Source of the DNA: a virus | DNA: 42,702 nucleotides | Virus record (IMG/VR): IMGVR_UViG_3300037245_002170 | Coordinates: 1-42,702 of that record | Reading direction: 5' to 3' (one strand) | In this document: positions 13,081 to 42,554 of the stretch, in pieces | Numbering within the stretch: position 1 is the first letter of the stretch | How the letters are laid out: every line of letters begins with the position of its first letter | Made by a program: the position numbers and the translations under genes | The notes under the pieces: generated by a model | The model's input: only the letters and a program-made list of their open reading frames with translations | Told to the model about the DNA's origin: nothing | Databases searched by the model: none

Positions 13081-13236
13081 ATGGAAAACATGACATCACA
13101 ATGGAAACCTCGTACAAACACTGGTAAGACCCACTTCAATAAAATGAAGGGTACTGGTGAATCATGGACGAACCTTCGTTCAGAAGTATGGGGTGCGGGA
13201 TACGTCTGCAAAGAAAAATGGGTTGACGTAAAATAG
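13081..13236 (+). CDS. Small hypothetical protein upstream of the tRNA region
   Basis: This 51-residue basic protein (MENMTSQWKPRTNTGK start) follows a good promoter and ribosome binding site. It is rich in lysine, tryptophan and glycine. No family is recognised. It ends just before the first tRNA-operon promoter. Confidence 0.55.
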   Translation: MENMTSQWKPRTNTGKTHFNKMKGTGESWTNLRSEVWGAGYVCKEKWVDVK

Positions 13237-13278
13237 TTTGAAATAATGGTTGACTTCCACTAACGAGTTGAGTATAGT
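13237..13278 (+). promoter_or_regulatory. Stable-RNA promoter P1 with upstream element
   Basis: TTGACT at 13250-13255 and TATAGT at 13273-13278 are 17 nt apart. The AT-rich TTTGAAATAATGG lies directly upstream (13237-13249) and recurs before P2 and P3. P1 would transcribe the large structured RNA and perhaps the tRNA array. Confidence 0.75.
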
Positions 13279-13283
13279 AATAC

Positions 13284-13320
13284 ATAACGATTGAGAAATC
13301 AATCAATGTTCTTTAAAATC
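13284..13320 (+). promoter_or_regulatory. Transcribed leader with boxA-like sequence (P1)
   Basis: The initially transcribed stretch reads ATAACGATTGAGAAATC and is followed by TGTTCTTTAAAA at 13307-13318. The latter resembles the bacterial boxA (TGCTCTTTAACA) bound by NusB/S10 in rRNA operons. The same arrangement follows P3. Confidence 0.55.
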
Positions 13321-13329
13321 TGAATAATT

Positions 13330-14190
13330 TGGGACGTATGGGTTCCAATTTGCCTTCGGGTAAGATAAACTGCGGTAACGTAGTGAAACAGGGTAGCTTT
13401 CTTACAAGTCCTGCCATGGAATTTATTTTTTCATGGACATCTATACAAGCCAAGCTTCTTATAAACTTCACTCCGGTGGAGGATTGGTGGAAGAGCTACA
13501 GGAAGAGGGTAACACCTCACACTAACGGATGATGCCGAGAACACTGAATCAATAGTTCGACATTGAAGAAGCAAAGGGTAGATATACTGTTAGAGTTTGT
13601 TGTGAACGAAAGCGGTGTGTCAAACTTAGTGGTGAAGGAACCAATTAGGTATTCCTGAGTCGTGAAAGTTGATTCAAGTAACTCGACAGGGTGAAAGGGT
13701 ATGTCTCGTAGTGTATTTCTGTTTTGGAAACTTAATGGAAGCAGTTGCTGACTGCACGAGGTGGTAAGTTGCAAATATAGCTCAATTGGTAGAGCAGTTG
13801 TCTAAGAAACAATTGGTTGGTGGTTCAAGTCCATCTCAAAGCAAAAGACGGTCAGCACGGTTGAATGAAAGTGACCTAACACCACTCAATGTGAGGTGGG
13901 TGATGGATTCCCTGCAAGGATGAAATCTATTTGTTAGCAACCATTCATAATATCTTAGCGGATATGAACAGCCCGTAAGGGTTGGTGACGTGAAACGCTA
14001 GTAGAGTAGTTTAACTGGATAGTGGTGAAGCAACCACTTTAAAAAATGCGGTCATGATGTTGACCAGTTTGCCCTTAGTGGGAATTGGTGGATAGTTGAT
14101 TAACGGGTACTCGCAAGGTGTTCGGTACGGTCTAAAAGAAACATCAAGTTGATAGGAGTAATCTCATCCTGTTGATAACATTTTTTGGAA
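13330..14190 (+). ncRNA. Large structured noncoding RNA candidate (GOLLD/ROOL-like class unproven)
   Basis: About 860 bases downstream of P1 hold no convincing gene but many local hairpins. These include a UUCG tetraloop stem (13350-13363), GUAA tetraloop stems at 13369-13384 (ACTGCG/CGTAGT) and 13970-13983 (AGCCC/GGGTT), GCAGT/ACTGC at 13741-13755, and AGTGGT/ACCACT near 14020-14038. Size, tetraloops and position at the head of a phage tRNA array fit the giant ornate RNAs GOLLD and ROOL, which are known from phages near tRNA genes. I cannot confirm class membership, and the exact ends are uncertain. Confidence 0.5.
13771..13842 (+). other. tRNA-like domain inside the large RNA
   Basis: Three arms have canonical tRNA spacing: D-stem GCTC/GAGC (13780-13795), anticodon arm GTTGT/ACAAT with loop CTAAGAA (13797-13813), and T-arm GGTGG-TTCAAGT-CCATC (13819-13835). 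The flanking 7-mers do not pair as an acceptor stem and no CCA follows. The nominal anticodon AAG would be Leu, but the variable arm is too short for Leu. Confidence 0.5.
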
Positions 14191-14245
14191 TTAATTTGAA
14201 TTGTATAAATAACATTAACGAACAACGGATATTAGGAAAGAATAA

Positions 14246-14356
14246 ATGAACAAACTTGGAAAACATATTATAGCGGGAAAATTAACAGTGGATAGTAATC
14301 CATTGCGCCCGTCCGTCCAATTTGCCAATTATATTGGTATGGAGGCTGGATTTTGA
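14246..14356 (+). CDS. Short ORF, possible leader peptide
   Basis: This 36-residue frame has AGGAAAG at 14234-14240 as a ribosome binding site. Its stop codon at 14354-14356 overlaps the first arm of a hairpin that competes with the terminator at 14390-14417. The peptide (MNKLGKHIIAGKL start) has no recognisable motif or obvious run of regulatory codons. The position suggests a leader peptide controlling readthrough into the tRNA genes. Confidence 0.45.
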   Translation: MNKLGKHIIAGKLTVDSNPLRPSVQFANYIGMEAGF

Positions 14357-14396
14357 CCACTTAAGCAAATAGCTTAAACTTTTTACGAAGGTGGTC
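14355..14396 (+). promoter_or_regulatory. Antiterminator-like hairpin
   Basis: GACCAC at 14355-14360 pairs with GTGGTC at 14391-14396, and inside it TTAAGC (14361-14366) pairs with GCTTAA (14372-14377). The distal arm is shared with the terminator stem, so the two structures exclude each other. Confidence 0.55.
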
Positions 14397-14417
14397 TAAA
14401 AATAGATCGCCTTTTTT
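14390..14417 (+). terminator. Intrinsic terminator before the first tRNA
   Basis: GGTGGTCTA (14390-14398) pairs with TAGATCGCC (14403-14411) around an AAAA loop and is followed by six Ts. It is a classical Rho-independent terminator only 18 bases before tRNA-Arg, with no promoter visible between them. Confidence 0.8.
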
Positions 14418-14435
14418 GTTACACTAATTTAAATT

Positions 14436-14510
14436 GCTCTTTTAGTTCAATGGATAGAATACCGGAGTACGATCCCGATGATAGGAGTTCGAATCTCTTA
14501 GAGAGCACCA
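14436..14510 (+). tRNA. tRNA-Arg (ACG)
   Basis: The acceptor GCTCTTT pairs with AGAGAGC and CCA is encoded. The anticodon loop GTACGAT gives ACG, read as ICG if deaminated. The anticodon stem has two mismatches at its ends (CCGGA/CCCGA), so the gene may be slightly decayed. Confidence 0.75.
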
Positions 14511-14514
14511 ATTT

Positions 14515-14530
14515 TGATCTTTGAAAAATA
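14515..14530 (+). promoter_or_regulatory. boxA-like sequence between tRNA-Arg and tRNA-Val
   Basis: TGATCTTTGAAAAATA resembles the boxA-like segments found in rRNA operon leaders and spacers and matches the copy at 14993. It lies in the transcribed spacer, consistent with an antitermination site. Confidence 0.4.
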
Positions 14531-14550
14531 GAATACAGAACGATAGAAAC

Positions 14551-14625
14551 GGTGGGTTAGTTCAGCGGTAGAACGTCTGGTTTACATCCAGAATGTCGGG
14601 GGTTCGATCCCCTCACTCATCACCA
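14551..14625 (+). tRNA. tRNA-Val (TAC)
   Basis: A complete cloverleaf is visible: acceptor GGTGGGT/ACTCATC with G-U pairs, D-stem GTTC/GAAC, anticodon arm TCTGG-TTTACAT-CCAGA, T-loop TTCGATC, and encoded CCA. Confidence 0.93.
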
Positions 14626-14631
14626 TTTTTT

Positions 14632-14722
14632 GGAAGTAGATGCATGACGGTGATTGCTACTCATTGCTAATGAGATGGGTTGGAGAAATCCAACTGGGGT
14701 TCGACTCCTCTTACTTCCTCCA
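14632..14722 (+). tRNA. tRNA-Ser (GCT)
   Basis: The acceptor GGAAGTA pairs perfectly with TACTTCC. The anticodon loop TTGCTAA gives GCT. A long variable arm (TTGGA-GAAA-TCCAA) marks it as a class II tRNA, as expected for Ser. CCA is encoded. Confidence 0.92.
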
Positions 14723-14724
14723 TT

Positions 14725-14797
14725 GGGGTGGTAGCTTAAAGTAAAGCGGTTCGCTTGCACCGAATCAGATGCGTGGTCGAACACGTTCACTCCACCA
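14725..14797 (+). tRNA. tRNA-Ala (TGC)
   Basis: The acceptor GGGGTGG/TCACTCC contains the G3-U70 pair that identifies Ala tRNAs. The anticodon loop CTTGCAC gives TGC. The T-arm is unusual: GCGTG/CACGT encloses a six-base loop GTCGAA instead of the standard seven-base TTCGAAT type. CCA is encoded. Confidence 0.85.
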
Positions 14798-14821
14798 ATT
14801 TGAAATAAATGAAATAACAGG

Positions 14822-14850
14822 TTGACTTACTGAAACAAGTCGGGTATAAC
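14822..14850 (+). promoter_or_regulatory. Stable-RNA promoter P2
   Basis: TTGACT (14822-14827) and TATAAC (14845-14850) are 17 nt apart. TTTGAAATAAATGAAA at 14799-14814 lies upstream in the UP-element position. No TGAGAAA leader follows this one. Confidence 0.7.
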
Positions 14851-14936
14851 ATATACATACTTAAGGAACGGATACGCCTCTGATGATACATGCAAACTGA
14901 GTCCGAAATTAAGTTTGAAATAAATGAAACAAATGA

Positions 14937-14965
14937 TTGACAATGATTAACGATTGAGATACATT
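14937..14965 (+). promoter_or_regulatory. Stable-RNA promoter P3
   Basis: TTGACA (14937-14942) and TACATT (14960-14965) are 17 nt apart, again preceded by TTTGAAATAAATGAAA (14914-14929). The leader ATAACGAATGAGAAATT begins 7 nt after the -10 box, and the boxA-like TGATCTTTGAAAATTG is at 14993-15008. Confidence 0.75.
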
Positions 14966-14971
14966 GACAAC

Positions 14972-15008
14972 ATAACGAATGAGAAATTGTTCTGATCTTT
15001 GAAAATTG
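14972..15008 (+). promoter_or_regulatory. Conserved leader and boxA-like element (P3)
   Basis: ATAACGAATGAGAAATT (14972-14988) is nearly the same as the P1 leader and related to the GTAATCAATGAGAAACC leader of four protein-gene promoters in this window. TGATCTTTGAAAATTG follows and resembles boxA. Confidence 0.55.
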
Positions 15009-15215
15009 AATATAGATAAATTGGTTTTAGCCGAAATTACCAATAAGCCGAAAACATGTTGAGTACGTTTAGGTTTGAGTAGGCTAATCTTTTATCAATG
15101 TAGACCACATATGAATGTGAGTCGTATATTGACGGTATGATTCAATCGTCACATATTAGCAATAGAGTTGAGGAAACCTTTTGTTGATTTGATGAATCTT
15201 AAATAATTTTATATC

Positions 15216-15292
15216 CGGTGTATAGCACAGTCTGGTAGTGCGCGTGGTTTGGGTCCACGAGGTCGCAGGTTCGAACCCTGCTACACCGACCA
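15216..15292 (+). tRNA. tRNA-Pro (TGG)
   Basis: The acceptor CGGTGTA pairs with TACACCG. D-stem GCAC/GTGC, anticodon arm CGTGG-TTTGGGT-CCACG and T-loop TTCGAAC are all standard. CCA is encoded. Confidence 0.95.
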
Positions 15293-15603
15293 ATTTGATG
15301 AATAAGTTGTATGGCGCACTTAGTGTAATCTGAAACGATTCCTATTCGTTTATCAACCTCTGATCATCACTAATTTAAATGAGGCTACGGGGCAACATTA
15401 AACTTCCGTTTACCAATTTTGGTTATCGCTTCGGGTTGAGTTCCTAAAGGGAATACTCGGCATCGATGTCTCACAGAAAACAGGACGAAGAGGTGAGATG
15501 CTTCAGATCGTTTATTGATAACCTTTAGTCAGTCGTATAAATGAATACGGTTCCCATTGCGGGAACAGATGTTGGTGTCGATTCCAGCTTGGCGATCAAT
15601 TTC
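15293..15603 (+). other. Gene-free region with structured RNA between tRNA-Pro and tRNA-Lys
   Basis: No coding sequence is seen. GGTTATC (15421-15427) pairs with GATAACC (15517-15523), enclosing GAG-TTCC/GGAA-CTC near 15438-15458 and TCTCAC/GTGAGA (15469-15474 with 15493-15498). This is a compact three-stem RNA of about 103 bases. Just after it, 15535-15598 holds three tRNA-arm-like hairpins (CGTAT/ATACG, GTTCC/GGAAC, TGG/CCA around TGTCGATT) with no acceptor stem, perhaps a decayed tRNA. Confidence 0.5.
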
Positions 15604-15680
15604 GGGTGTGTAGCTCAGTTGGTTAGAGCATCGGACTTTTAATCCGAGGGTCGAGAGTTCGAGCCTCTCCGCACCCACCA
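15604..15680 (+). tRNA. tRNA-Lys (TTT)
   Basis: The acceptor GGGTGTG pairs with CGCACCC. The anticodon arm TCGGA-CTTTTAA-TCCGA gives TTT. CCA is encoded. Confidence 0.95.
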
Positions 15681-15688
15681 TTTTTATT

Positions 15689-15763
15689 GCGCTGTTGGCA
15701 GAGTGGCTTATGCATTGGATTGCAAATCCAAATACAGGTGTTCGATTCACCTACAGTGCTCCA
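15689..15763 (+). tRNA. tRNA-Cys (GCA)
   Basis: The acceptor GCGCTGT pairs with ACAGTGC and the discriminator is U, as is usual for Cys. The anticodon arm TTGGA-TTGCAAA-TCCAA gives GCA. CCA is encoded. Confidence 0.95.
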
Positions 15764-15771
15764 TTTTTATT

Positions 15772-15858
15772 GGAAGGTTGACAGAGTGGTAATGTTCTGG
15801 TCTTGAACACCAGTGGCGGTGAAAGCCGACGAGGGTTCGATCCCCTCACCTTCCTCCA
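15772..15858 (+). tRNA. tRNA-Ser (TGA)
   Basis: The acceptor GGAAGGT pairs with ACCTTCC. The anticodon arm CTGGT-CTTGAAC-ACCAG gives TGA. A long variable arm (CGG-TGAAA-GCCG) is present. CCA is encoded. Confidence 0.94.
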
Positions 15859-15862
15859 TTTT

Positions 15863-15999
15863 GTCGTCAGCTGAATGATAGTGAAACAGATAGCCTTGTG
15901 CAGAAAACTACTATTGAATCATTCTCTCAGATGATACGGGTGTATCATTGATTACAGCAGATATTACGGAGTTTCACTGTCACCACAGAAGCTCCACCA
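15863..15999 (+). ncRNA. Structured RNA unit with possible pseudoknot
   Basis: This 137-base unit between tRNA-Ser and tRNA-Tyr ends in CTCCACCA like its tRNA neighbours but has no acceptor stem that I can match. GAATGAT (15873-15879) pairs with ATCATTC (15918-15924). AGTGAAAC (15880-15887), in its loop, pairs with GTTTCACT (15971-15978) outside, which makes a pseudoknot. ATGATAC/GTATCAT (15931-15948) forms a hairpin. Confidence 0.4.
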
Positions 16000-16006
16000 T
16001 CTTAAT

Positions 16007-16093
16007 GCATAGATAGAGCGTAATTGGTAGCGTCACAGGTTGTAACCCTGTTGCCTTCGGGTCTTGGTGGTTCGAGTCCATCTCTATGCACCA
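16007..16093 (+). tRNA. tRNA-Tyr (GTA)
   Basis: The acceptor GCATAGA pairs with TCTATGC. The anticodon arm ACAGG-TTGTAAC-CCTGT gives GTA. The long variable arm has a UUCG tetraloop, as expected for a bacterial class II Tyr tRNA. CCA is encoded. Confidence 0.92.
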
Positions 16094-16102
16094 TTTTAAG
16101 TC

Positions 16103-16177
16103 TCGCAAGTCGTATAGTGGCATTGCTTCTGGCTGTTAACCAGAAAGACGTTGGTTCGAATCCAACCTTGCGAACCA
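16103..16177 (+). tRNA. tRNA-Asn (GTT)
   Basis: The acceptor TCGCAAG pairs with CTTGCGA. The anticodon arm TCTGG-CTGTTAA-CCAGA gives GTT. T-arm and CCA are standard. Confidence 0.94.
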
Positions 16178-16186
16178 ATTTTATAC

Positions 16187-16263
16187 GGACTCTTAGTTCA
16201 GTTGGTCAGAACGTCTCGCTCATAACGAGGGTGTCGGGGGTTCAAGTCCCTCAGAGTCCACCA
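16187..16263 (+). tRNA. tRNA with CAT anticodon (elongator Met or Ile2)
   Basis: The acceptor GGACTCT pairs with AGAGTCC. The anticodon loop CTCATAA gives CAT. Three intact CAT tRNAs occur in the array; this one has a fully paired acceptor and so is not an initiator. Lysidine modification would convert it to Ile, which cannot be decided here. Confidence 0.92.
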
Positions 16264-16753
16264 TTTTGAAATCATACAATATCTAAGGCGATGTTGCATA
16301 CAGACCAGTAACTATTGAATCCAAACTCTATGAAGAGCTAAGTAATGGAGAGGTGAAAATAGTGCTCCATGAAATCCGTTGAGAGCATACAAGTACGGTG
16401 ACATGTAGAATCGGAATAATTGGCCGAAAATGATGCAAGTGCGGTATGCTAATGAACTGCATTAAATGGTATCTGTGAAAATGGCAATATTTGATTTCGA
16501 TTAATTTAACACAATAAGGGTGTTGGGTACGGGTTATCCACAGTAGTAAGGTAGGTTCGATTCCCACCAACCTTTGGGTTCGATTCCCTTGGAGTGGACT
16601 GAAACTACTTTCGATTTATAGGTACACGGGAAGGAAAATAGTAGAGAAGTGTTGTTAGGTTGATTGATAATGTCACGTAATTCCTAAATTAACTCTAGGG
16701 TCGCCATCTAGTCATGGATAATGATAAATCTACAACCTATCCAATTTAATATA
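16264..16753 (+). other. Gene-free 490-base region with a tRNA fragment
   Basis: I see no gene in this stretch. Near its middle, AAGGGTG (16516-16522) can pair with CAACCTT (16568-16574) with one mismatch. They flank a single stem-loop (GGGTA/TATCC) and a T-arm GTAGG-TTCGATT-CCCAC, a 59-base tRNA-like relic. A second T-arm-like sequence (GGG-TTCGATT-CCC) follows at 16576-16588. The rest is AT-rich with no structure I can defend. Confidence 0.4.
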
Positions 16754-16828
16754 GTCCCATTCGTCTAACGGTTAGGACATCGGACCTTCAATCCGAGAAT
16801 AGGAGTTCGATTCTCCTATGGGACACCA
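16754..16828 (+). tRNA. tRNA-Glu (TTC)
   Basis: The acceptor GTCCCAT pairs with ATGGGAC. The anticodon stem TCGGA/TCCGA encloses CCTTCAA, giving TTC. Position 33 is C instead of the near-universal U. CCA is encoded. Confidence 0.85.
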
Positions 16829-16978
16829 ATTTTGCAGGTTGACCGTAGTGGGTTAAATCTGCCTAAACCGAATGTGGTGTATTGGAAGCACATCACCCCT
16901 CAGTAATCATACTTCACTGGTGTGGTGAAATGGGGAGAAGGATGAGGATTCGAAGTCCGAAACTAGGTTTTGATTATT
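16829..16978 (+). other. Structured spacer between tRNA-Glu and a tRNA-like unit
   Basis: No gene is present. CCCC (16896-16899) pairs with GGGG (16932-16935) around TTCAC/GTGAA (16913-16917 with 16925-16929), and GCAG/CTGC brackets an upstream segment. It continues into the tRNA-like unit at 16979. Confidence 0.35.
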
Positions 16979-17154
16979 TTTGTGGTAGTGTAACGGAATC
17001 CCATAGACGAATTGAGATATCTTTTCGGTAGAGGATCAAAGTATTACAACAGGGGTGCTTCAGTGCAGTCAAAACCAACTAGTTGTGGTTGTAATATCGA
17101 GTAGCACAGGTGGGAAGACCATCTGGTATCGGTTCAAATCCGATCCACAATACA
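16979..17154 (+). ncRNA. tRNA-like unit with about 104-base insert in the D-loop
   Basis: The acceptor TTTGTGG pairs with CCACAAT (6 of 7). TA at positions 8-9 is followed by D-stem GTGT (16988-16991), whose partner GCAC lies at 17104-17107, leaving a D-loop of 112 bases instead of 7-10. The T-arm ATCGG-TTCAAAT-CCGAT is perfect. The anticodon-arm position holds a hairpin CAGGTGG/CCATCTG with no U33. The end reads ACA, not CCA. Confidence 0.5.
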
Positions 17155-17161
17155 TTTTATT

Positions 17162-17246
17162 GCTCGTATGGTGAAACTGGTAAACGCATCAGACTTAAAA
17201 TCTGACGACTTCGGTCTTGTGGGTTCGATTCCCACTATGAGCACCA
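17162..17246 (+). tRNA. tRNA-Leu (TAA)
   Basis: The acceptor GCTCGTA pairs with TATGAGC. The anticodon arm TCAGA-CTTAAAA-TCTGA gives TAA. The class II variable arm and CCA are present. Confidence 0.95.
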
Positions 17247-17251
17247 ATTTT

Positions 17252-17336
17252 AGAATCTCATCGTTGTCAATCAACCCCTTACTTGGTGGTTGAGGCAAGA
17301 GCAGACGTGCAATTGGAGAAATCCAGCGATAGAACA
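17252..17336 (+). ncRNA. Structured RNA unit between two Leu tRNAs
   Basis: ATCGTTG (17260-17266) pairs with CAGCGAT (17324-17330), and inside it TCAACC (17271-17276) pairs with GGTTGA (17288-17293). It is not a cloverleaf and carries no CCA. It may be a small RNA or a processing spacer. Confidence 0.4.
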
Positions 17337-17342
17337 TTTTAT

Positions 17343-17427
17343 GCTCGTGTGGTGAAACTGGTAAACACGCTGGTCTTAGGAACCAGTGCCGTAAGGTTTG
17401 TGGGTTCGACTCCCACCATGAGCACCA
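17343..17427 (+). tRNA. tRNA-Leu (TAG)
   Basis: The acceptor GCTCGTG pairs with CATGAGC. The anticodon arm CTGGT-CTTAGGA-ACCAG gives TAG. The class II variable arm and CCA are present. Confidence 0.95.
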
Positions 17428-17434
17428 ATTTACT

Positions 17435-17775
17435 GGGGGTGTCACGGTTTCGATTGTCATCACAAGGTAATAACTACAAGTAGTGGATGAGCTTCAGGCC
17501 ACTTTAAAAAGGGTTCAACAAACTATAATTGCAGATACTCTAGCAATTGCGGCTTAGTTGTCGCGCACGTAATTAGAAACATTCACGTTCTTTTTATTGT
17601 GTTCCTATTAGTGGATTGACTTACTAGGAAAGACTGGTTGACGTAATCCAAAGGATTTGACTGAAATGAAAGTGTTTCAAAAGAGTGTCAGTACTTCTTT
17701 GAATATTGACTAAACTTGTAAACGTTATACTGGAAGATAGGTAAGACGGGAGTTCGAATCTCCCCACCTCCACCA
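17435..17775 (+). ncRNA. ssrA: tmRNA (transfer-messenger RNA)
   Basis: The 5' end GGGGGTGTCACGGTTTCGA is the standard tmRNA start. The 3' end has T-arm GGGAG-TTCGAAT-CTCCC and acceptor CACCTCC-A-CCA. The acceptor pairs fully with GGGGGTG and contains G3-U70, the alanyl-tRNA synthetase identity pair. A short reading frame at 17531-17557 encodes ADTLAIAA and stops at TAG, giving a typical small hydrophobic degradation tag; the exact resume codon is inferred. The length of 341 bases fits bacterial tmRNA. It would rescue ribosomes stalled on cut or broken mRNAs. Confidence 0.93.
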
Positions 17776-17799
17776 TTTTAAACAACAAAGGAGAAATAA

Positions 17800-18048
17800 A
17801 TGTTTATTGAAGTGTATATGATCCCAGCAAGTGAATGGGGTACAAAGGATAAAAGTAAAGTAAAAGTTGAGGCTAATAAACGAACAGTTAATGTGTCATC
17901 TATTTTACGGGTTCAACCATCAACTAATGAAGCATTGAAGGATCGTGCCGAACTAGTGATGTCTGACAAAGTTCGTTATCACGTTCTTGGGTCATATGAA
18001 GAAGTAATTGCACGGGTTAACAAAGTTGATAATGTTGAACGTGTATAA
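17800..18048 (+). CDS. Small hypothetical protein behind the tmRNA
   Basis: This 82-residue protein has AAGGAG at 17787-17792 as a good ribosome binding site. It contains two lysine-rich strands (KDKSKVKVEANKRTVNV) and a C-terminal VLGSYEEVIARVNKV helix. It is the only well-supported protein gene inside the plus-strand tRNA array, and it lies 24 bases after the tmRNA. No function is recognised. Whether it acts with tmRNA, as SmpB does, cannot be judged: it lacks SmpB motifs and is about half its length. Confidence 0.65.
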   Translation: MFIEVYMIPASEWGTKDKSKVKVEANKRTVNVSSILRVQPSTNEALKDRAELVMSDKVRYHVLGSYEEVIARVNKVDNVERV

Positions 18049-18141
18049 CAGAACCATACTGGATAAGATTAGGTAGTATCTGCAATGGATACTGTAAAAA
18101 ATAGAGTGGGTCAACCACCAGCTTAATAAACTCCAGTTTTC

Positions 18142-18216
18142 GCTGATGTAGCTCAATGGTAGAGCAATGGATTGAAACCCCATGTGTCGTTGGTTCGAAC
18201 CCAACCTTCAGCACCA
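18142..18216 (+). tRNA. tRNA-Phe (GAA)
   Basis: The acceptor GCTGATG pairs with CTTCAGC with one mismatch. The anticodon loop TTGAAAC gives GAA; its stem ATGGA/CCCAT has one A-C mismatch. CCA is encoded. Confidence 0.87.
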
Positions 18217-18227
18217 ATTTTTATAAT

Positions 18228-18374
18228 GCTCGATGTTGTGATGAGGAGGAAAGATTATAATAAGACAGTACATCTTATTCTGACTTCCAATATTTTGTTG
18301 GAGCACACCATCAACAATAAAATTACGTAAACCTATTGTTGAATGGAGGAGATCATACCTCTCATTGAGCACCA
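18228..18374 (+). ncRNA. tRNA-ended RNA unit, 147 bases
   Basis: The ends pair as a tRNA acceptor (GCTCGAT with ATTGAGC), followed by A and CCA. The 5' end resembles the Leu tRNAs of the array. The T-arm position holds GAGG/CCTC with an abnormal loop. Inside are two strong hairpins, AATAAGA/TCTTATT with a seven-base loop and CAACAATA/TATTGTTG, instead of D and anticodon arms. Confidence 0.45.
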
Positions 18375-18625
18375 ATTTTTATTGTCTGTGGTTTGTAGGA
18401 TAACCACAATAGAAAACACCTACCCAATTTAAGACGGTGGTAAAGAAAAACGTTCAATTGATAATGGAAACCGTTGTCAACCATCTCATTACAGTGCCTA
18501 TACCATGGTGCATGACTGGAAGCGGGAATGAGACGAAAAGTTAATTGAATAGGTTCTATGTGATACTAGTTAAATCATGACTTTCTTCGGAAAGTAGGGT
18601 TCAAATCCCTTATTATCATCACCAA
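18375..18625 (+). ncRNA. Structured unit with tRNA-like 3' end
   Basis: TGATAAT (18459-18465) pairs perfectly with ATTATCA (18612-18618), directly after a T-arm TAGGG-TTCAAAT-CCCTT and a variable-arm-like hairpin with a UUCG loop. The RNA ends CACCA with two extra bases before the usual CCA position. The middle can form TTCAATT/AATTGAA around TCTCATT/AATGAGA. No anticodon arm is evident. Confidence 0.4.
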
Positions 18626-18632
18626 TTTTGCA

Positions 18633-18703
18633 ATTAGCATATAGGTATAATGCGATTCCCCAGAGAAGGAGTAGAAGTGAATTCAAACCCACGTTGCATA
18701 TCC
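18633..18703 (+). pseudogene. Decayed tRNA
   Basis: A tRNA-sized unit has a good D-arm (GCAT/ATGC), an anticodon-position stem ATTCC/GGAGT around an eight-base loop CCAGAGAA without U33, and a T-arm with two A-C mismatches around TTCAAAC. The acceptor pairs TGCAA with TTGCA, and CCA is present. I do not assign an amino acid. Confidence 0.45.
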
Positions 18704-18710
18704 ATTTTAT

Positions 18711-18785
18711 TGCCCTATAGTATAACGGTCAGTACAGGAGACTTTGAATCTCTGGGTCACGGTTCGATTCCGTGTAGGGCATCCA
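18711..18785 (+). tRNA. tRNA-Gln (TTG)
   Basis: The acceptor TGCCCTA pairs with TAGGGCA. The anticodon arm GGAGA-CTTTGAA-TCTCT gives TTG. CCA is encoded. Confidence 0.94.
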
Positions 18786-18792
18786 TTTTTAT

Positions 18793-18867
18793 TGCCTTAT
18801 CGTACAACGGTTAGTATGGGAGACTCTGACTCTCTAGATTTCAGTTCGATTCTGAATGAGGCATCCA
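18793..18867 (+). tRNA. tRNA-Gln (CTG)
   Basis: The acceptor TGCCTTA pairs with TGAGGCA. The anticodon arm GGAGA-CTCTGAC-TCTCT gives CTG. It is a diverged duplicate of the neighbouring Gln tRNA, with the wobble base changed. CCA is encoded. Confidence 0.92.
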
Positions 18868-18878
18868 ATTTATAAAAC

Positions 18879-18954
18879 GCAAGTGTGGCTGAGTGGTAAA
18901 GGCGGGTGATTTCCAATCATCTTTTTGCGGGTTCAAATCCTGTCACTTGCACCA
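18879..18954 (+). tRNA. tRNA-Gly (TCC)
   Basis: The acceptor GCAAGTG pairs with CACTTGC. The anticodon arm GGTGA-TTTCCAA-TCATC gives TCC. CCA is encoded. Confidence 0.9.
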
Positions 18955-18961
18955 ATTTTAT

Positions 18962-19074
18962 GCTAGGTTACGCAAGACATAGACTTCCCCAATAGGTATA
19001 CATCTGGATAGCCTTCGGATAAGCGAGAGGTGCAAAACCTTCGATGATTGGTTCGAATCCAATGCCTAGCTCCA
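18962..19074 (+). ncRNA. tRNA-like unit, 113 bases, enlarged D-loop
   Basis: The acceptor GCTAGGT pairs with GCCTAGC (one G-U), the T-arm ATTGG-TTCGAAT-CCAAT is perfect, and CCA is encoded. A D-stem CGC/GCG encloses about 46 bases. The anticodon position holds GAGG/CCTT with loop TGCAAAA, lacking U33. It is either an insert-bearing tRNA or a tRNA-derived RNA. Confidence 0.5.
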
Positions 19075-19152
19075 ATTTAGGTTAAGCTGTTAACCTCTTA
19101 ACATTAAGTTGAAGTATCCACATATATGGTGGATTGATAAATAACACACAAT
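19075..19152 (+). other. Hairpin spacer
   Basis: AGGTTAA/TTAACCT (around 19079-19097) and ATCCAC/GTGGAT (around 19118-19136) form two hairpins in the spacer. No gene is present. Confidence 0.4.
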
Positions 19153-19370
19153 TTGAAGTAGAATAAGTCGATACTGTCACCCTAATAGCTTAAAGGTGAT
19201 GAAAAACATATGAGAGACTCCGCTAGAAGAACGTAATGGACACATGTGATACAAAACAACCAGAACTAGTAAGCAAGCAATGAGGAACAACGTGAAATCC
19301 ATATGGTGAAAATTTCGCCCACCCTACGTGGTGGAGAGTGTATGTAATCCGATAACATACCTTCAATCCA
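19153..19370 (+). ncRNA. Structured RNA with acceptor-like ends, 218 bases
   Basis: TTGAAGT at the 5' end pairs with CCTTCAA at the 3' end (6 of 7), followed by T and CCA and the usual ATTTT spacer. Next to the 3' strand GTATGT/ACATAC forms a T-arm-like hairpin with a nine-base loop. TCACC/GGTGA forms near 19177-19201. There is no cloverleaf, and the assignment is tentative. Confidence 0.35.
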
Positions 19371-19382
19371 ATTTTAAACACT

Positions 19383-19457
19383 TTGCCTGTAGATCAATGG
19401 TTAGATTGCTAGACTGTGACTCTGGAGACTTGGGTTCGACTCCCAACAGGCAACCCA
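19383..19457 (+). tRNA. tRNA-His (GTG)
   Basis: The acceptor TTGCCTG pairs with CAGGCAA and the discriminator is C. The anticodon arm CTAGA-CTGTGAC-TCTGG gives GTG. The base before position 1 is T, so the G-1 that identifies bacterial His tRNAs is not encoded. Confidence 0.9.
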
Positions 19458-19466
19458 TTTATATAT

Positions 19467-19542
19467 GCCAGTATAGCTTTAACGGTAGAGCAACGGTCTT
19501 GTAAACCGAAGGTTGGGAGTTCGAATCTCTCTGCTGGCTCCA
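19467..19542 (+). tRNA. tRNA-Thr (TGT)
   Basis: The acceptor GCCAGTA pairs with TGCTGGC. The anticodon arm ACGGT-CTTGTAA-ACCGA gives TGT. CCA is encoded. Confidence 0.93.
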
Positions 19543-19547
19543 ATTTT

Positions 19548-19623
19548 GCATGATTAGCTCAGATGGAAGAGCACGAGATTTCTAATCTCGAAGTCATAGG
19601 TTCGATCCCTATATCGTGCGCCA
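19548..19623 (+). tRNA. tRNA-Arg (TCT)
   Basis: The acceptor GCATGAT pairs with ATCGTGC and the discriminator is G. The anticodon arm CGAGA-TTTCTAA-TCTCG gives TCT. CCA is encoded. It would read AGA, a codon often rare in hosts. Confidence 0.94.
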
Positions 19624-19626
19624 TTT

Positions 19627-19720
19627 TGAATAACATTAGACCACGGCAACACAAGGAATTCCTGCAATATGGATGTAACAACTTTCGTGGTTCTGTTGAA
19701 TGTGTCCTTGGTGTTATTCA
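19627..19720 (+). ncRNA. Structured RNA closed by a 9-bp stem
   Basis: TGAATAACA (19627-19635) pairs with TGTTATTCA (19712-19720). ACCACG (19640-19645) pairs with CGTGGT (19686-19691) inside it, and AGGAATTCCT lies in the loop. It has no CCA and no tRNA arms. It could be a small RNA released when the flanking tRNAs are processed. Confidence 0.5.
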
Positions 19721-19724
19721 TTTC

Positions 19725-19801
19725 CCCTGATTAGCTCAGTCGGTTAGAGCGTTCGACTCATATTCGAAAGGTCGCTGGTTCGATTCCAGCATCAGGGACC
19801 A
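19725..19801 (+). tRNA. tRNA with CAT anticodon (Met or Ile2)
   Basis: The acceptor CCCTGAT pairs with ATCAGGG. The anticodon arm TTCGA-CTCATAT-TCGAA gives CAT. All pairs are good and CCA is encoded. It could be elongator Met or lysidine-modified Ile. Confidence 0.92.
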
Positions 19802-19828
19802 TTTTAAACAATGATATATTAATCAATT

Positions 19829-19903
19829 TGCGGGTGGGAGGTTCAGTATCTCTCTTGGCTCATAACCAAGCATAAACTGGTGCAAATCCAAGACCCGCTA
19901 CCA
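19829..19903 (+). tRNA. tRNA-fMet-like (CAT)
   Basis: The acceptor TGCGGGT/ACCCGCT has six pairs and a T-T mismatch at 1-72; a 1-72 mismatch is the hallmark of bacterial initiator tRNAs. The body GCGGGTGGGAG resembles bacterial fMet tRNA. The anticodon arm CTTGG-CTCATAA-CCAAG gives CAT but lacks the three G-C pairs of a strong initiator. The T-arm has two mismatches. Confidence 0.7.
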
Positions 19904-19911
19904 ATTTCAAT

Positions 19912-19984
19912 GGGGATATAGCTCAATCGGTAGAGCACTAGCCTGTCAAGTTAGAGGTTGCGGGATCGTACCCCGTTATTCCCG
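19912..19984 (+). tRNA. tRNA-Asp (GTC), 3' end not followed by CCA
   Basis: The acceptor GGGGATA pairs with TATTCCC and the discriminator is G. The anticodon arm CTAGC-CTGTCAA-GTTAG gives GTC. The T-loop ATCGTAC is atypical. CCA is not encoded: the sequence runs directly into CATTTTT. The stop codon of the minus-strand HNH gene lies inside the acceptor region. Confidence 0.85.
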
Positions 19985-20716
19985 CATTTTTAATAATTCC
20001 ACCCTACGTGTTGGTATATCATAGAATCTACACCACTTTCGAATAGAATTACCACTTACACCATATTTTATACCAGCTTGTTCAATATTTGTTGATATTA
20101 TGTCATCTATTAATATATTAACATCAGGTCTTTTGGATATATTCGAGTTTGATACAATTTGAGCACAACTAACACACCGTGTTGATTTTCTATGTATTGT
20201 AGTGTTACAGTCAATACATTTATTGATTTTTCGTTTATGTTTACCACTAAATGTTGATGTTTGGGTGTGGCAGTTAGGGCATATGAATCTTAAATTACAC
20301 ATCCTATTATCGTTATTTATACCGTTTTTGTGATCCAATTGTAATACCAACACATCATCATTCCAAAATGGTAGTTGTCCACATGAATCACATATATATG
20401 GTAACATATCACCATCGATTATACGTTTCTTAATTCGACCACGGCAATATGTTGAATTTTCAATAAAAACACTATCGTCATCTAATCGACACTGTTTTCT
20501 TAGTTGTTCACCATGTTTCTTTAAGTGTATTTTACGGTTTTCATCTAATTTCAAGGTTGAAAGATCATATAAAACTATACGATTTTTAAGTGTTTGCCTA
20601 TTTCCACAACTTCCACTTAACCCTATAGTTTTTAATACATCAACTGATGATGTTGATGTATCCAAAATATGTTGTAATTGTTGTATGCTATATGTATCAA
20701 TTTTACTTTTTCTCAT
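19976..20716 (-). CDS. HNH homing-type endonuclease
   Basis: This 246-residue protein is the only minus-strand gene. Its HNH core is LQLDHKNGINNDNRMCNLRF followed by CPNCHTQT (around residues 124-152), flanked by CDSCGQ and a second CxxC pair (CIDCN, CVSCAQ), a zinc-stabilised arrangement. The C-terminal segment IKYGVSGNSIRKWCRFYDIP looks like a helix-turn-helix for target recognition. AGAGG upstream of ATG 20714-20716 supports the start. Its stop overlaps the 3' end of tRNA-Asp, so it probably entered the array as a free-standing mobile endonuclease. Confidence 0.88.
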   Translation of the reverse strand: MRKSKIDTYSIQQLQHILDTSTSSVDVLKTIGLSGSCGNRQTLKNRIVLYDLSTLKLDENRKIHLKKHGEQLRKQCRLDDDSVFIENSTYCRGRIKKRIIDGDMLPYICDSCGQLPFWNDDVLVLQLDHKNGINNDNRMCNLRFICPNCHTQTSTFSGKHKRKINKCIDCNTTIHRKSTRCVSCAQIVSNSNISKRPDVNILIDDIISTNIEQAGIKYGVSGNSIRKWCRFYDIPTRRVELLKMRE

Positions 20717-20783
20717 TTTTTTAACCTCTTATATATTTATGAACCCACAAGTATTTATACAAAACAGTCACAATACCAATTAT

Positions 20784-20859
20784 AGTCACGTAGCTCAGAA
20801 GTGAGAGCATCTGTCTGATACACAGAGGGTCGGGATTGCAAAATTCTCCGTGACTACCA
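20784..20859 (+). tRNA. tRNA-Ile (GAT)
   Basis: The acceptor AGTCACG pairs with CGTGACT. The anticodon arm TCTGT-CTGATAC-ACAGA gives GAT. The T-arm is weak, with an enlarged loop containing TTGCAAAA. CCA is encoded. Confidence 0.85.
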
Positions 20860-20863
20860 ATTT

Positions 20864-21011
20864 GAGTAAGTAGTATAATGGCAGAACACCATTGATAGTT
20901 TGATCCCTCATTCGCCTAGTATTTCGGCTCATAACCGAAGAACATCGAGTTGATATCAGTAATTCTTGACACATAATGGGGAATTAGGTTCGATTCCTAA
21001 CTTGCTCACCA
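20864..21011 (+). ncRNA. tRNA-like unit, 148 bases, with internal CAT anticodon arm
   Basis: The acceptor GAGTAAG pairs with CTTGCTC, the T-arm TTAGG-TTCGATT-CCTAA is perfect and CCA is encoded. A D-arm-like GTATAATGGCAGAAC follows the 5' acceptor strand. A perfect anticodon arm TTCGG-CTCATAA-CCGAA lies in the middle, but about 30 extra bases separate it from the D-arm and about 45 from the T-arm. It could be a tRNA with two inserts or a recombined tRNA. Confidence 0.5.
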
Positions 21012-21020
21012 ATTTCAATT

Positions 21021-21095
21021 AGGGGCGTAGTACAACGGTTAGTATTGGGGATTCCAAATCCTTTGATTTCGGTTCGAATCCGAACGTCCCTGCCA
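21021..21095 (+). tRNA. tRNA-Trp (CCA)
   Basis: The acceptor AGGGGCG pairs with CGTCCCT and the discriminator is G. The anticodon loop TTCCAAA gives CCA. The 3' CCA is encoded. Confidence 0.93.
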
Positions 21096-21104
21096 ATTTC
21101 AAAT

Positions 21105-21179
21105 GCATCATTAGCTCAATGGTAGAGCACCACGTTGCCAACGTGAAGGTTGATGGCTCAACTCCGTCATGATGCACCA
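21105..21179 (+). tRNA. tRNA-Gly (GCC)
   Basis: The acceptor GCATCAT pairs with ATGATGC. The anticodon loop TTGCCAA gives GCC. The T-loop is CTCAACT, lacking the usual TTC. CCA is encoded. Confidence 0.88.
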
Positions 21180-21205
21180 ATTTATCTATATTCAATTCAG
21201 TTTTC

Positions 21206-21287
21206 GCACATATGGTGAAACTGGTAGACACGCTACTTTCAAACGGTAGTGTCTTATGACGTGTGGGTTCGAATCCCTCTATGTGCA
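21206..21287 (+). tRNA. tRNA-Leu (CAA), CCA not encoded
   Basis: The acceptor GCACATA pairs with TATGTGC and the discriminator is A, followed directly by ATTTTT. The anticodon stem CTACT/GGTAG encloses TTCAAAC, giving CAA. The class II variable arm is present. It is the last tRNA of the array and would need CCA addition by the host enzyme. Confidence 0.88.
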
Positions 21288-21310
21288 ATTTTTATTAAAG
21301 GTGGGTGTTT

Positions 21311-22027
21311 ATGTTTATGAAAAGGTTAATTAGCGTATTGTTGGTACTCATCAGTGTATCAATTGTTTCACATAGTAAGCGTATCACATATTGGGATAGT
21401 ACATCAATCGGTTGGGAAACTCTCGAATATGATACCGAAATGTTTGAATTACATTTGTCTACCAATCTAACATCAGATGATTGGTATAAAATTGGTTTAA
21501 TACCACTAAACATAACTAATTATTTCCACAATGCAATACTACCACAAGCATTTTTCCGAATCACACCCCAAAATGAACTTTTGAAACTACCTGTACCCAG
21601 TTCAATATTTAGCAATGGTGTGTGGGTATCGGATGGACATGACTGGGAATTACGTGATAGAAATCATTGGAATGTAACAACCAATGTACCTGAATTGTTG
21701 GATATAGGAGATGTCACCACATTGGTCACAGATTACACACCACCATCAAATATAGTAACCACTCATGGTACGGTTGGTCTACCAATAGAACGATTTGCAA
21801 TACCATTAGTCTACGGTACAAATTACGTACACTGTTGGGATGATCGATCACGGTCATGGTTGGTAAAGGAGATTTATGATCTCAGTGGTTTTTATGAATT
21901 TCAGGTTCCAGCATGGAATCAATGGTTTTGGGTTGGTGTGTTCAATGAGGATGCTGATGAATATGTGTATGGGAAATGGATTGGTCATTTCTTAATATCA
22001 AAATCTGAAATTAATATAAGGTACTGA
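21311..22027 (+). CDS. Secreted protein of unknown function
   Basis: This 238-residue protein begins with a clear signal peptide (MFMKRLISVLLVLISVSIVSHS, cleavage likely near residue 22). The mature part is rich in Trp and beta strands, with two loosely similar halves each containing YWD/CWDD and WxxG motifs (residues about 26-60 and 175-225). It is probably exported to the periplasm or envelope. ATG 21311 is chosen over GTG 21305 and ATG 21317; AAAGGTGG precedes it. No family is recognised. Confidence 0.65.
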   Translation: MFMKRLISVLLVLISVSIVSHSKRITYWDSTSIGWETLEYDTEMFELHLSTNLTSDDWYKIGLIPLNITNYFHNAILPQAFFRITPQNELLKLPVPSSIFSNGVWVSDGHDWELRDRNHWNVTTNVPELLDIGDVTTLVTDYTPPSNIVTTHGTVGLPIERFAIPLVYGTNYVHCWDDRSRSWLVKEIYDLSGFYEFQVPAWNQWFWVGVFNEDADEYVYGKWIGHFLISKSEINIRY

Positions 22028-22042
22028 CATGTAAAGTTTATG

Positions 22043-22070
22043 TTGACAGTTGGTTTGATATATGTATACT
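22043..22070 (+). promoter_or_regulatory. Promoter for the membrane-protein gene
   Basis: TTGACA (22043-22048) and TATACT (22065-22070) are 16 nt apart. Confidence 0.7.
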
Positions 22071-22097
22071 AGTGGTTAAATTAAAAAGGAGATATTT

Positions 22098-22346
22098 ATG
22101 CGTTGGTTAAAGTTTGTTGCAAAATTGTTTGGTCGTATTGTTGGTGGTATTTTAGCTTGTGGTTTATGGTATGGGTTAGTATTTGTAATCACATCAATGT
22201 GTATGGATATTAAAGCTATTTTTATTATGTTATTAGTATGTCTGTGTCTGTTTGCTGTATGTGCTTTAGTCGGTGTATGTATTGCTGGTGTTTGTACATA
22301 CATTCAATGGTCATGTAAACCACCCCTACTAGATCCAAAAAAATAA
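22098..22346 (+). CDS. Small membrane protein
   Basis: This 82-residue protein has two hydrophobic segments (about residues 15-35 and 40-68) and a basic N terminus (MRWLKFVAKLFGR), so it probably spans the inner membrane twice. It is cysteine-rich. AGGAG precedes ATG 22098 at good spacing. The function is unknown; size and topology would fit a superinfection-exclusion or holin-like protein, but nothing proves this. Confidence 0.6.
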   Translation: MRWLKFVAKLFGRIVGGILACGLWYGLVFVITSMCMDIKAIFIMLLVCLCLFAVCALVGVCIAGVCTYIQWSCKPPLLDPKK

Positions 22347-34532: not shown

Positions 34533-34838
34533 ATGGATGAAAAAGTAGAAAAATCAAAATACCTCGTTATTGAATCGAAGGTTGATCGAAATATTGTAGC
34601 TGTTGGTGAACGTCGATCTTACCGATACTTCGGTGACGGGATAAACTCAGAGGTGATTTCCAACATCCTGAACGGTGGAAAAATCAACTGGGATGATAAG
34701 ACCTTCAAAATCGTTGAAGGGAAGTTGGTTAAATTTAAAGATACAATTCTCGAACCAGATGAGTATAATGTAGTCTACAAAGGGTTCAATGAAAACCAAG
34801 CTGAGAAAGCTTATGAAAAACGAGGTATTACAAAATGA
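34533..34838 (+). CDS. Hypothetical protein ahead of RNA ligase
   Basis: This 101-residue protein is the first gene after promoter copy C and overlaps the RNA ligase by 4 bases. It has a mixed strand-helix pattern (KYLVIESKVDRNIVAVGER). No family is recognised, but coupling suggests a role linked to the ligase. Confidence 0.6.
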   Translation: MDEKVEKSKYLVIESKVDRNIVAVGERRSYRYFGDGINSEVISNILNGGKINWDDKTFKIVEGKLVKFKDTILEPDEYNVVYKGFNENQAEKAYEKRGITK

Positions 34839-35908
34839 GTGAAACAATCGAAAACGTGTTGAGTGAAACATTCTCAGAAGAACAAAAACAAGCAATGGTT
34901 GAAGTATTTAAAGGTGATGGTACTGGTGATTTCACTAAGTTCAAATCCATTGAAAATCATTACCGTGGTAAGTTCATCAACGATACATTTGAATATTACC
35001 CAGAGTATATGACGTGCTCATATATCAATACTGAAAAAGCTGATGGTGCAAACTTTCAATTTAAATTTACCACATTGGATGATGGTTCAATTACACTTTC
35101 ATATGGTAAACGTACTTCACTGCTTGACATGAGTGATAAATTCTTTGGTTACCAAGAAGTTGTTACTGGTGATCGATACACCGAATTCACTGAAATGATT
35201 TTTGAATTTATGCGTGACTTCGAACATCGTGAAGTAATCGTGTATGGTGAACTTATCGGGAGTAAGATCAATAACCGTATTGATTATGGTGATGGGAAGA
35301 AAGTTCTATTCTTTGATATCTCAATTGATGGGTTCTACGTAACTCAACGTCAATTCTTCGAGTTCATGAATTCAAAAGAGTTTGATGATATCACCATTCC
35401 AATCACGGGTATCTATGATACTTTTGATGAAGCAATGGAAGCTGATGTTGAAAACGTTCACACGTTGATCAATCCTGATGCTGATCCAGAAAATGATAAC
35501 TCATACATTGAGGGTGTTGTAATCAAACCGTATGATGTCATCGTAACGAACAAAGATGATCAACAGGTTCTGTTTTACGTGAAACATAAATCTGATCGGT
35601 TTGCCGAAAAGATGAAAGTTCGGAAACATAAAACACCAGCTGTGATCAACCCAGAGGTTCAGAATGCACAGGACGTGTTTGCATCATACCTAACCAAGAA
35701 CCGTTTGATTGGTATCTTCTCTAAGATGGGTGAGATCGAAACACCGAAAGATATGGGTCAATACATCAAAGCGATGTCAGCTGATGCACAAGAGGACTTC
35801 CTGAAGGATAATATGGAACTGTTCATGGAACTTACGGATAAACAACGTAAGTTAATCTTCAAGGTTGCTGGTAAGGTTGTCAGTAAAATGTTGCAGGAAT
35901 ATTTGTAG
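34835..35908 (+). CDS. RNA ligase, Rnl2-like
   Basis: This 357-residue nucleotidyltransferase has the adenylated lysine K68 in NTEKADGANF (motif I), VYGELIG (motif III), EGVVIKP (motif IV) and YVKHKSDRFAEK (motif V). The order and the KxDGANF form match the Rnl2 family, which seals nicks and breaks in RNA. With the encoded tRNA set it could repair cut tRNAs. The C-terminal 90 residues are helical and may bind RNA. Confidence 0.87.
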   Translation: MSETIENVLSETFSEEQKQAMVEVFKGDGTGDFTKFKSIENHYRGKFINDTFEYYPEYMTCSYINTEKADGANFQFKFTTLDDGSITLSYGKRTSLLDMSDKFFGYQEVVTGDRYTEFTEMIFEFMRDFEHREVIVYGELIGSKINNRIDYGDGKKVLFFDISIDGFYVTQRQFFEFMNSKEFDDITIPITGIYDTFDEAMEADVENVHTLINPDADPENDNSYIEGVVIKPYDVIVTNKDDQQVLFYVKHKSDRFAEKMKVRKHKTPAVINPEVQNAQDVFASYLTKNRLIGIFSKMGEIETPKDMGQYIKAMSADAQEDFLKDNMELFMELTDKQRKLIFKVAGKVVSKMLQEYL

Positions 35909-41883: not shown

Positions 41884-42048
41884 ATGATCAATATAGAAGA
41901 TGCGTGTGTTAATATAACGTTTATCGATGACCAGAAAGTTTCATATAAACGATCTAAAAACAAAGAATCGATGTTACAGAAGATATTTGAACACATCAGT
42001 GACACCACTGAGTTAACGATTAAAGAAGTTAAGGAAATTTTGGAGTGA
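41884..42048 (+). CDS. Small hypothetical protein
   Basis: This 54-residue protein follows the promoter and a GAGGAATATAATC ribosome binding region. It is followed two bases later by the kinase gene. Confidence 0.5.
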   Translation: MINIEDACVNITFIDDQKVSYKRSKNKESMLQKIFEHISDTTELTIKEVKEILE

Positions 42049-42050
42049 TA

Positions 42051-42554
42051 ATGTCAAAGAAACCAGTTAAAATGTTCGTGCTTGTTGGACTTCCAGCAAG
42101 CGGTAAAAGTACAGTAAGAGATGTTCTAGCAAAACACCTATCCAAGCTTGGTCTTGCATACACCATCGTTTCACCTGATGATATTCGGGGTGAACTATGT
42201 AATGGTGATGTGACTGATCAAAGTCGAAACAAACAAGTTTTTGAACTAGCACATGACCGACTGAATAAAAACCTTAAGGGTGGTCGTTCAGTAATCTTTG
42301 ATGCAACCTGTGTTGATCTTAAGACTCGTAGACAACTGATTAGAATTGCCGATAGATCGAAAGCTGGTAAAGTTGCTGTCTGGATGGATACATCTCTTCG
42401 GGTATGTAAACAAAGAAACAGTAAACGTGATCGGGTTGTCCCTGATTTTGTATTCGATAAGATGAAACGTAAATATAAAGAACCAACAATTGATGAGGGT
42501 TTTGATTCGATTATCCGTGTTGGTAAGAAAACTGTATTGACTAATGTGATTTAA
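42051..42554 (+). CDS. P-loop kinase, polynucleotide-kinase-like
   Basis: This 167-residue protein has Walker A GLPASGKST (residues 13-21), SPDDIRGELC in the position of the substrate-binding DD(I/L)R of polynucleotide kinases, and SVIFDATCVDLKTRR with a lid-like RNSKRDRVVPD arginine cluster. It resembles the kinase domain of T4 PseT but lacks a phosphatase domain. It would phosphorylate 5' ends of RNA or DNA and could feed the two RNA ligases. Confidence 0.75.
   Translation: MSKKPVKMFVLVGLPASGKSTVRDVLAKHLSKLGLAYTIVSPDDIRGELCNGDVTDQSRNKQVFELAHDRLNKNLKGGRSVIFDATCVDLKTRRQLIRIADRSKAGKVAVWMDTSLRVCKQRNSKRDRVVPDFVFDKMKRKYKEPTIDEGFDSIIRVGKKTVLTNVI

Follow-up and report, generated by a model that had tools for sequence, protein, structure and literature searches.

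The window analysed here, the whole of IMG/VR virus record IMGVR_UViG_3300037245_002170, is a linear virus contig of 42,702 bases, probably a fragment. Between positions 14436 and 21287 it carries an array of 28 tRNA genes, which together cover all 20 amino acids, and a transfer-messenger RNA (tmRNA), directly downstream of a giant RNA resembling GOLLD. On balance we favour reading the array as a stable-RNA operon, a private decoding set with a ribosome-rescue RNA that would be kept against the loss of host tRNAs. The new part is the presence within it of about ten unnamed conserved candidate RNAs.

An earlier note, made from the letters of the sequence, had listed 28 tRNA genes, and two programs returned the same list in the same places. 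ARAGORN called 26 tRNAs and one tmRNA, all on the plus strand, and an Rfam cmscan added Ala-TGC (14725, 48.7 bits) and Ile-GAT (20784, 53.1 bits). The E-values of the individual tRNA genes against all of Rfam ranged from 4e-3 to 1e-14. The genes are given below with their cmscan scores; ARAGORN also called each one unless indicated.

14436..14510 (+): tRNA-Arg ACG, 50.0 bits
14551..14625 (+): tRNA-Val TAC, 65.2 bits
14632..14722 (+): tRNA-Ser GCT, 27.8 bits
14725..14797 (+): tRNA-Ala TGC, with G3.U70; cmscan, missed by ARAGORN
15216..15292 (+): tRNA-Pro TGG, 66.1 bits
15604..15680 (+): tRNA-Lys TTT, 74.3 bits
15689..15763 (+): tRNA-Cys GCA, 60.2 bits
15772..15858 (+): tRNA-Ser TGA, 55.6 bits
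16007..16093 (+): tRNA-Tyr GTA, 32.5 bits
16103..16177 (+): tRNA-Asn GTT, 61.3 bits
16187..16263 (+): tRNA CAT (Met or Ile2), 66.8 bits
16754..16828 (+): tRNA-Glu TTC, 62.2 bits
17162..17246 (+): tRNA-Leu TAA, 59.4 bits
17343..17427 (+): tRNA-Leu TAG, 60.1 bits
18142..18216 (+): tRNA-Phe GAA, 66.1 bits
18711..18785 (+): tRNA-Gln TTG, 64.3 bits
18793..18867 (+): tRNA-Gln CTG, 53.5 bits
18879..18954 (+): tRNA-Gly TCC, 60.4 bits
19383..19457 (+): tRNA-His GTG, 62.1 bits
19467..19542 (+): tRNA-Thr TGT, 62.8 bits
19548..19623 (+): tRNA-Arg TCT, 66.3 bits
19725..19801 (+): tRNA CAT (Met or Ile2), 72.3 bits
19829..19903 (+): initiator-like tRNA CAT, degenerate; ARAGORN only
19912..19985 (+): tRNA-Asp GTC, without encoded CCA, 65.9 bits
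20784..20859 (+): tRNA-Ile GAT, cmscan
21021..21095 (+): tRNA-Trp CCA, 58.2 bits
21105..21179 (+): tRNA-Gly GCC, 64.0 bits
21206..21287 (+): tRNA-Leu CAA, without encoded CCA, 52.0 bits

The gathering score of the Rfam tRNA family RF00005 (29 bits) was passed by 26 of the 28, and these 26 alone cover all 20 amino acids, as the note had claimed. Met rests on the CAT genes, and one gene counted for it may be Ile2. The outcome that the note had named as fatal, several genes under threshold with amino acids left uncovered, was not observed. Ser-GCT at 14632 falls just under the cut-off, yet is a good long-arm ARAGORN call, and Ser is covered besides by Ser-TGA; the initiator-like gene at 19829-19903 gave no covariance-model match at E<=1e-3. 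With the usual wobble, CGG (0.47% of codons) is the one sense codon left unread; reading AUA requires that one of the CAT tRNAs be of Ile2 type.

The sole useful relative of the window is L115 (also L012 and G001), a 31.5-kb contig about 82% identical to it. Gene order is common to the two up to the start of the tmRNA; L115 covers the first half of the array, and the second half is without a relative. Individual tRNAs are between 43% and 95% identical to those of L115. Compensatory pair changes distinguish tRNA-Lys, Met and Glu from their L115 counterparts, and we therefore take these to be selected as RNAs. The weak score of tRNA-Tyr recurs in L115, where a gene in the same place scores 31.3 bits.

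Between Leu-TAG and Phe lies the tmRNA, which the earlier note did not list.

17435..17775 (+): tmRNA; ARAGORN, 112.8 bits against the RF00023 gathering score of 47 bits

It encodes the tag ADTLAIAA in frame with a stop, and its acceptor is of the alanine type; by direct reading, both it and the Ala tRNA carry the G3.U70 alanine identity pair. Matches to plastid-ycf2, tRNA-Sec and permuted tmRNA were cross-matches to the tRNAs and the tmRNA. ARAGORN found permuted, two-piece tmRNAs in other GroEL-carrying phage contigs (L114 at 2864-3269 on the minus strand, L042 and L059), with tags in this group that include ANDDVYSLAA.

tRNAs make up about half of the array; the rest was overlooked by the earlier note, whose tRNA list was otherwise right. 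The segments between the tRNAs include the following.

14798..15215 (+): region A, 89% identical to L115, alifold z -2.9 for 15020-15215; promoter-like TTGACT-17-TATAAC at 14822 and a structured 3' part
15293..15603 (+): candidate RNA B, 84% identical over aligned positions, alifold z -1.1 (not significant)
15859..16006 (+): candidate RNA C, 93% identical to L115
16264..16753 (+): region D, 74% identical overall to L115; two tandem T-arm-like hairpins at about 16550-16610, conserved in L115
16829..17081 (+): candidate RNA E, 88% identical to L115, alifold z -3.5
17247..17342 (+): candidate RNA F, 94% identical to L115
18387..18426 (+): possible H-type pseudoknot RNA by direct reading, with a 96% identical copy elsewhere in L115
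19624..19724 (+): candidate RNA J, a long hairpin GAATAACA...TGTTATTC (fold)

Several of these segments (84-94%) are better conserved than many of the tRNAs and than the fourfold-degenerate sites of neighbouring genes, which are 69% identical between the window and L115. Using alifold z against column shuffles on these two sequences, we observed a structural signal above the shuffles for E and A, and none of significance for B, C, D and F. The comparison supports the view that these segments are under selection and, for only some of them, that they fold as structured RNAs. The inter-tRNA segments had no match in Rfam or in the other loci compared. Nor did a joint blastn of 3,059 nt of them, all but the unit at 20864, return a match among 50,697 phage records including T4.

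The motif CCA(A/T)TTT stands directly 3' of 26 of the 29 tRNA and tmRNA genes. It occurs nine times in other gaps against 1.9 expected, a count reached by none of 2000 dinucleotide shuffles. These orphan ends close several units with a seven-pair acceptor stem and a T-arm-like hairpin. At least five units have such a tRNA-type closure, by acceptor stem, T-arm and CCA or a variant of it, while being expanded or altered elsewhere. The tRNA-like and closed units are listed here, the one at 17082 standing apart from the closed and looser units.

16656..16743 (+): candidate acceptor-closed unit in region D, looser (acceptor pairing, fold)
17082..17155 (+): tRNA-like RNA, 29.2 bits; variable middle hairpin, loop without U33
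18228..18374 (+): acceptor- and T-arm-closed long RNA candidate ending in CCA, closed (acceptor pairing, fold)
18436..18624 (+): acceptor- and T-arm-closed long RNA candidate ending in CCA, closed (acceptor pairing, fold)
18629..18704 (+): degenerate tRNA-like unit, looser (fold)
18962..19074 (+): expanded tRNA-like RNA of 113 nt, closed; canonical T-arm, acceptor and CCA
19108..19370 (+): acceptor-closed long RNA candidate, looser (fold)
20864..21011 (+): expanded tRNA-like RNA, closed, 34.5 bits; the clearest expanded unit

The earlier note had none of the tRNA-like RNAs at 17082, 18962 and 20864. In L115 the T-arm and acceptor of 17082-17155 are kept and the middle hairpin is changed, with U33 absent from both copies. 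A covariance-model alignment gives 20864-21011 canonical acceptor, D- and T-arms and assigns 74 additional nt to the anticodon loop, among which is a perfect CAT anticodon arm. As to a group I or other known tRNA intron in this unit, no match to an intron family was found in the window at gathering scores, nor in 12300-22100 up to an E-value of 1. Two other large-phage arrays have similar units. One lies at 81060-81169 of the contig G003, scores 51.8 bits and has an anticodon loop enlarged by 35 bases, and the array of G010 holds two more, of 131 and 147 nt. None of the expanded units of the window, G003 and G010 matches a known intron family. We treat the expanded units as candidates, since covariation needs a relative and there is none for the array's second half. 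It is possible, though we put it forward only tentatively, that arrays of large phages encode recurrent, undescribed expanded tRNA-like RNAs together with further structured RNAs, about ten of them here, and that some act on host translation or tRNA nucleases. The expanded class so proposed would span 110-190 nt, mature at both ends like a tRNA and carry extra structured domains, placed in either the variable region or the anticodon loop.

Upstream of the array the window contains the following features.

13250..13278 (+): promoter-like site TTGACT-17-TATAGT before the GOLLD-like RNA, weak; flank 93% identical in L115
~13331..14170 (+): GOLLD-like giant RNA, with a variable 5' domain (13331-13702) and a conserved 3' domain (13703-14170)
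13771..13843 (+): pseudo-tRNA in the GOLLD-like RNA, 51.7 bits, without CCA; anticodon loop unconserved in the L115 alignment
14246..14356 (+): 36-residue open reading frame (ORF) between the GOLLD-like RNA and the array, conserved in L115
14387..14414 (+): terminator-like hairpin preceding the array, kept in L115

The GOLLD model of cmscan matched over its full length at 13703-14170 with 98 bits (E 2.8e-25), under the curated gathering score of 150 for RF02032, and we therefore call the RNA GOLLD-like. For its 5' domain the alifold z is -7.5, and comparison with L115 shows 14 compensatory pairs and no broken one. The conserved 3' part, variable 5' part, linker tRNA and setting in a phage beside a tRNA array all agree with GOLLD as described in PMC12286853 and PMC6582537. 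GOLLD forms RNA cages (PMC12286853), and a true member of the class would form a 14-mer cage. We left the pseudo-tRNA at 13771 out of the decoding set despite its score; mycobacterial GOLLD is likewise described with an internal tRNA-like element (PMC6582537). Neither the GOLLD-like RNA nor this pseudo-tRNA was in the earlier note. A GOLLD-like RNA, a tmRNA and tRNAs also occur together in another contig, G004. In L113 (G006), a 364-kb phage contig, ARAGORN placed two tRNAs with a CTA anticodon (amber or pyrrolysine type) in the GOLLD region 1272-2024, and GOLLD may contain one of them, or both, as pseudo-tRNAs.

The promoter-like site at 13250 is weak because promoter-like matches in the region numbered 32 against 30.4 in shuffles, with no excess. 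The T4 late-promoter motif TATAAATA occurred 8 times in the window, too few for an argument. The C-terminal half of the 36-residue ORF is near-identical in L115.

The protein genes that bear on the array, of which the HNH gene was also absent from the earlier note, are these.

17800..18048 (+): ORF of 82 residues, no Pfam match
19976..20716 (-): HNH endonuclease gene inside the array, PHROG 10822, E 3e-37
34835..35908 (+): RNA ligase 2 type gene, PF18043, PF09414
39089..40273 (+): T4 RNA ligase 1 type gene, PF09511, PHROG 562
42045..42554 (+): polynucleotide-kinase-like P-loop protein, PF13671, PHROG 505

Given both RNA ligases and the kinase, together with UvsX, DnaB helicase, a gp32-like protein, a tail sheath stabiliser, GroEL and NAD ligase, we regard the source as a T4-like myovirus. 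The best phage-record matches of the two window proteins queried were under 60% identity. Two relatives reached through the DUF4942 protein, L009 and L010, had no tRNA array, and NAD ligase as query recovered no related loci. Exact scans of viral contigs with a tmRNA piece and the pseudoknot module returned nothing beyond the relative already known. The window also carries S-adenosylmethionine decarboxylase and DUF3326 genes at 6529-7910, for which no good L115 counterpart was found.

A T4-like myovirus would thus hold a near-complete decoding set in one stable-RNA cluster next to a GOLLD-like RNA. The cluster would be transcribed as long precursors, which host RNases would cut at the repeated CCA-ATTT boundaries, and host synthetases would charge the phage tRNAs. 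The same precursors would yield the further structured RNAs between the tRNAs, several closed like tRNAs. Late phage protein synthesis could then persist through the cutting of host tRNAs by defence nucleases or their decay after host shut-off, while the tmRNA would free stalled ribosomes and the phage RNA ligases and kinase-like protein may mend cut tRNAs. Host tRNA loss by either route is to us the most economical reason for a full set. Near-complete codon coverage, the tmRNA and the nearby T4-type ligase and kinase-like genes are all consistent with it, and phage tRNAs that oppose tRNA-cutting defences have precedent in other phages (PMC10264068, PMC11555353).

Several points weigh against this reading. 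A full set would be explained as well by codon compensation, by a broad host range or by simple accumulation. Family scans, which covered a subset of the ORFs in a window that is itself a fragment, did not find an SmpB gene. Some of the tRNA genes look partly decayed. The initiator-like gene has a three-pair T-arm and unpaired acceptor ends, and there are anticodon-stem mismatches in Arg-ACG and Phe. Charging of tRNA-His by a standard histidyl-tRNA synthetase (HisRS) appears doubtful because the gene has C73 but no G-1.

Codon compensation is the classic hypothesis, in which the tRNAs would supplement codons used more by an AT-rich phage than by its host, with no loss of host tRNAs. At about 37% GC the phage is indeed AT-rich, and its A/U-ending codons are served. 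Compensation has been reported for the Xanthomonas phage XacN1 (PMC5852040), but it calls for some tRNAs only and the array carries Trp, Met, Cys and the two Gln isoacceptors as well; we consider it unlikely. We are similarly sceptical that the array is accumulated cargo, in large part neutral or decaying, built up from RNA modules through recombination and through transfer assisted by homing endonucleases. The HNH gene, the uneven tRNA identity to L115 and a 47-nt module found at differing positions in the window and L115 do make the array modular and recombining, and the decayed tRNAs and orphan T-arms point the same way. Against this, the inter-tRNA segments and several tRNAs exceed fourfold-site conservation, stems have changed in a compensatory manner and all 20 amino acids are retained. 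It is very improbable, finally, that the locus serves chiefly as decoy and rescue, with tRNA-like and expanded RNAs baiting host tRNA nucleases, the tmRNA freeing ribosomes and decoding secondary. Intact acceptor, D- and T-arms beside broken or enlarged anticodon loops would suit such bait, as would the missing U33 at 17082 in both contigs. Most of the tRNAs nevertheless look capable of decoding, no nuclease target is known, and the first half of the array has one relative and the second half none.

The earlier note called a complete set rare even among large phages, which is fair, although such sets were known before. In XacN1, which like the window has a chaperonin gene, 56 tRNAs serve all 20 amino acids (PMC5852040), but they sit in the terminal repeats of a 385-kb jumbo genome. 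The mycobacteriophage Momo has 34 tRNAs for all 20 amino acids and one tmRNA (PMC4472892), and cluster C1 phages average 33 tRNAs each (PMC10264068). Momo and cluster C1 (Bixzunavirus) share with the window the myovirus type, the full set and the tmRNA (PMC4472892), but Momo is of a different lineage and its record has no GOLLD match. A 32-tRNA cluster of M. aubagnense, considered phage-derived, combines GOLLD holding a pseudo-tRNA with an HNH gene; mycobacterial GOLLD arrays, however, lie in bacterial chromosomes, and no tmRNA is reported within the M. aubagnense cluster in the available part of the paper (PMC6582537). The phage DSS3_MAL1 has a tRNA array and an over-cut-off GOLLD RNA in one genome, with the GOLLD about 8 kb from the array. 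In T4, two stable RNAs of unexplained role, rnaC and rnaD, lie next to eight tRNAs, and rnaC has a canonical T-arm near its 3' end. Like these, the candidates in the window lie in a phage tRNA cluster, are longer than a tRNA and are not tRNAs. The blastn search of inter-tRNA segments found no homology to rnaC or rnaD, so the resemblance is one of kind only, and T4 has two such RNAs and no GOLLD against about ten candidates here. Full phage tRNA sets, alone or with a tmRNA, are already known, as is GOLLD beside tRNA arrays. We know of no report in which these are joined by expanded tRNA-like units and by unnamed conserved RNAs in such number.

Annotation usually passes over unnamed RNAs of this sort, since they are not tRNAs and encode no protein; their conservation here is nonetheless above that of fourfold-degenerate sites. 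T4 rnaC and rnaD show that the kind is real, though unexplained, and interest in the RNAs described here would rise if they prove to be expressed. A single locus that unites a whole decoding set with a ribosome-rescue RNA and a giant RNA would make a good test system for why phages carry tRNAs, a question open for fifty years.

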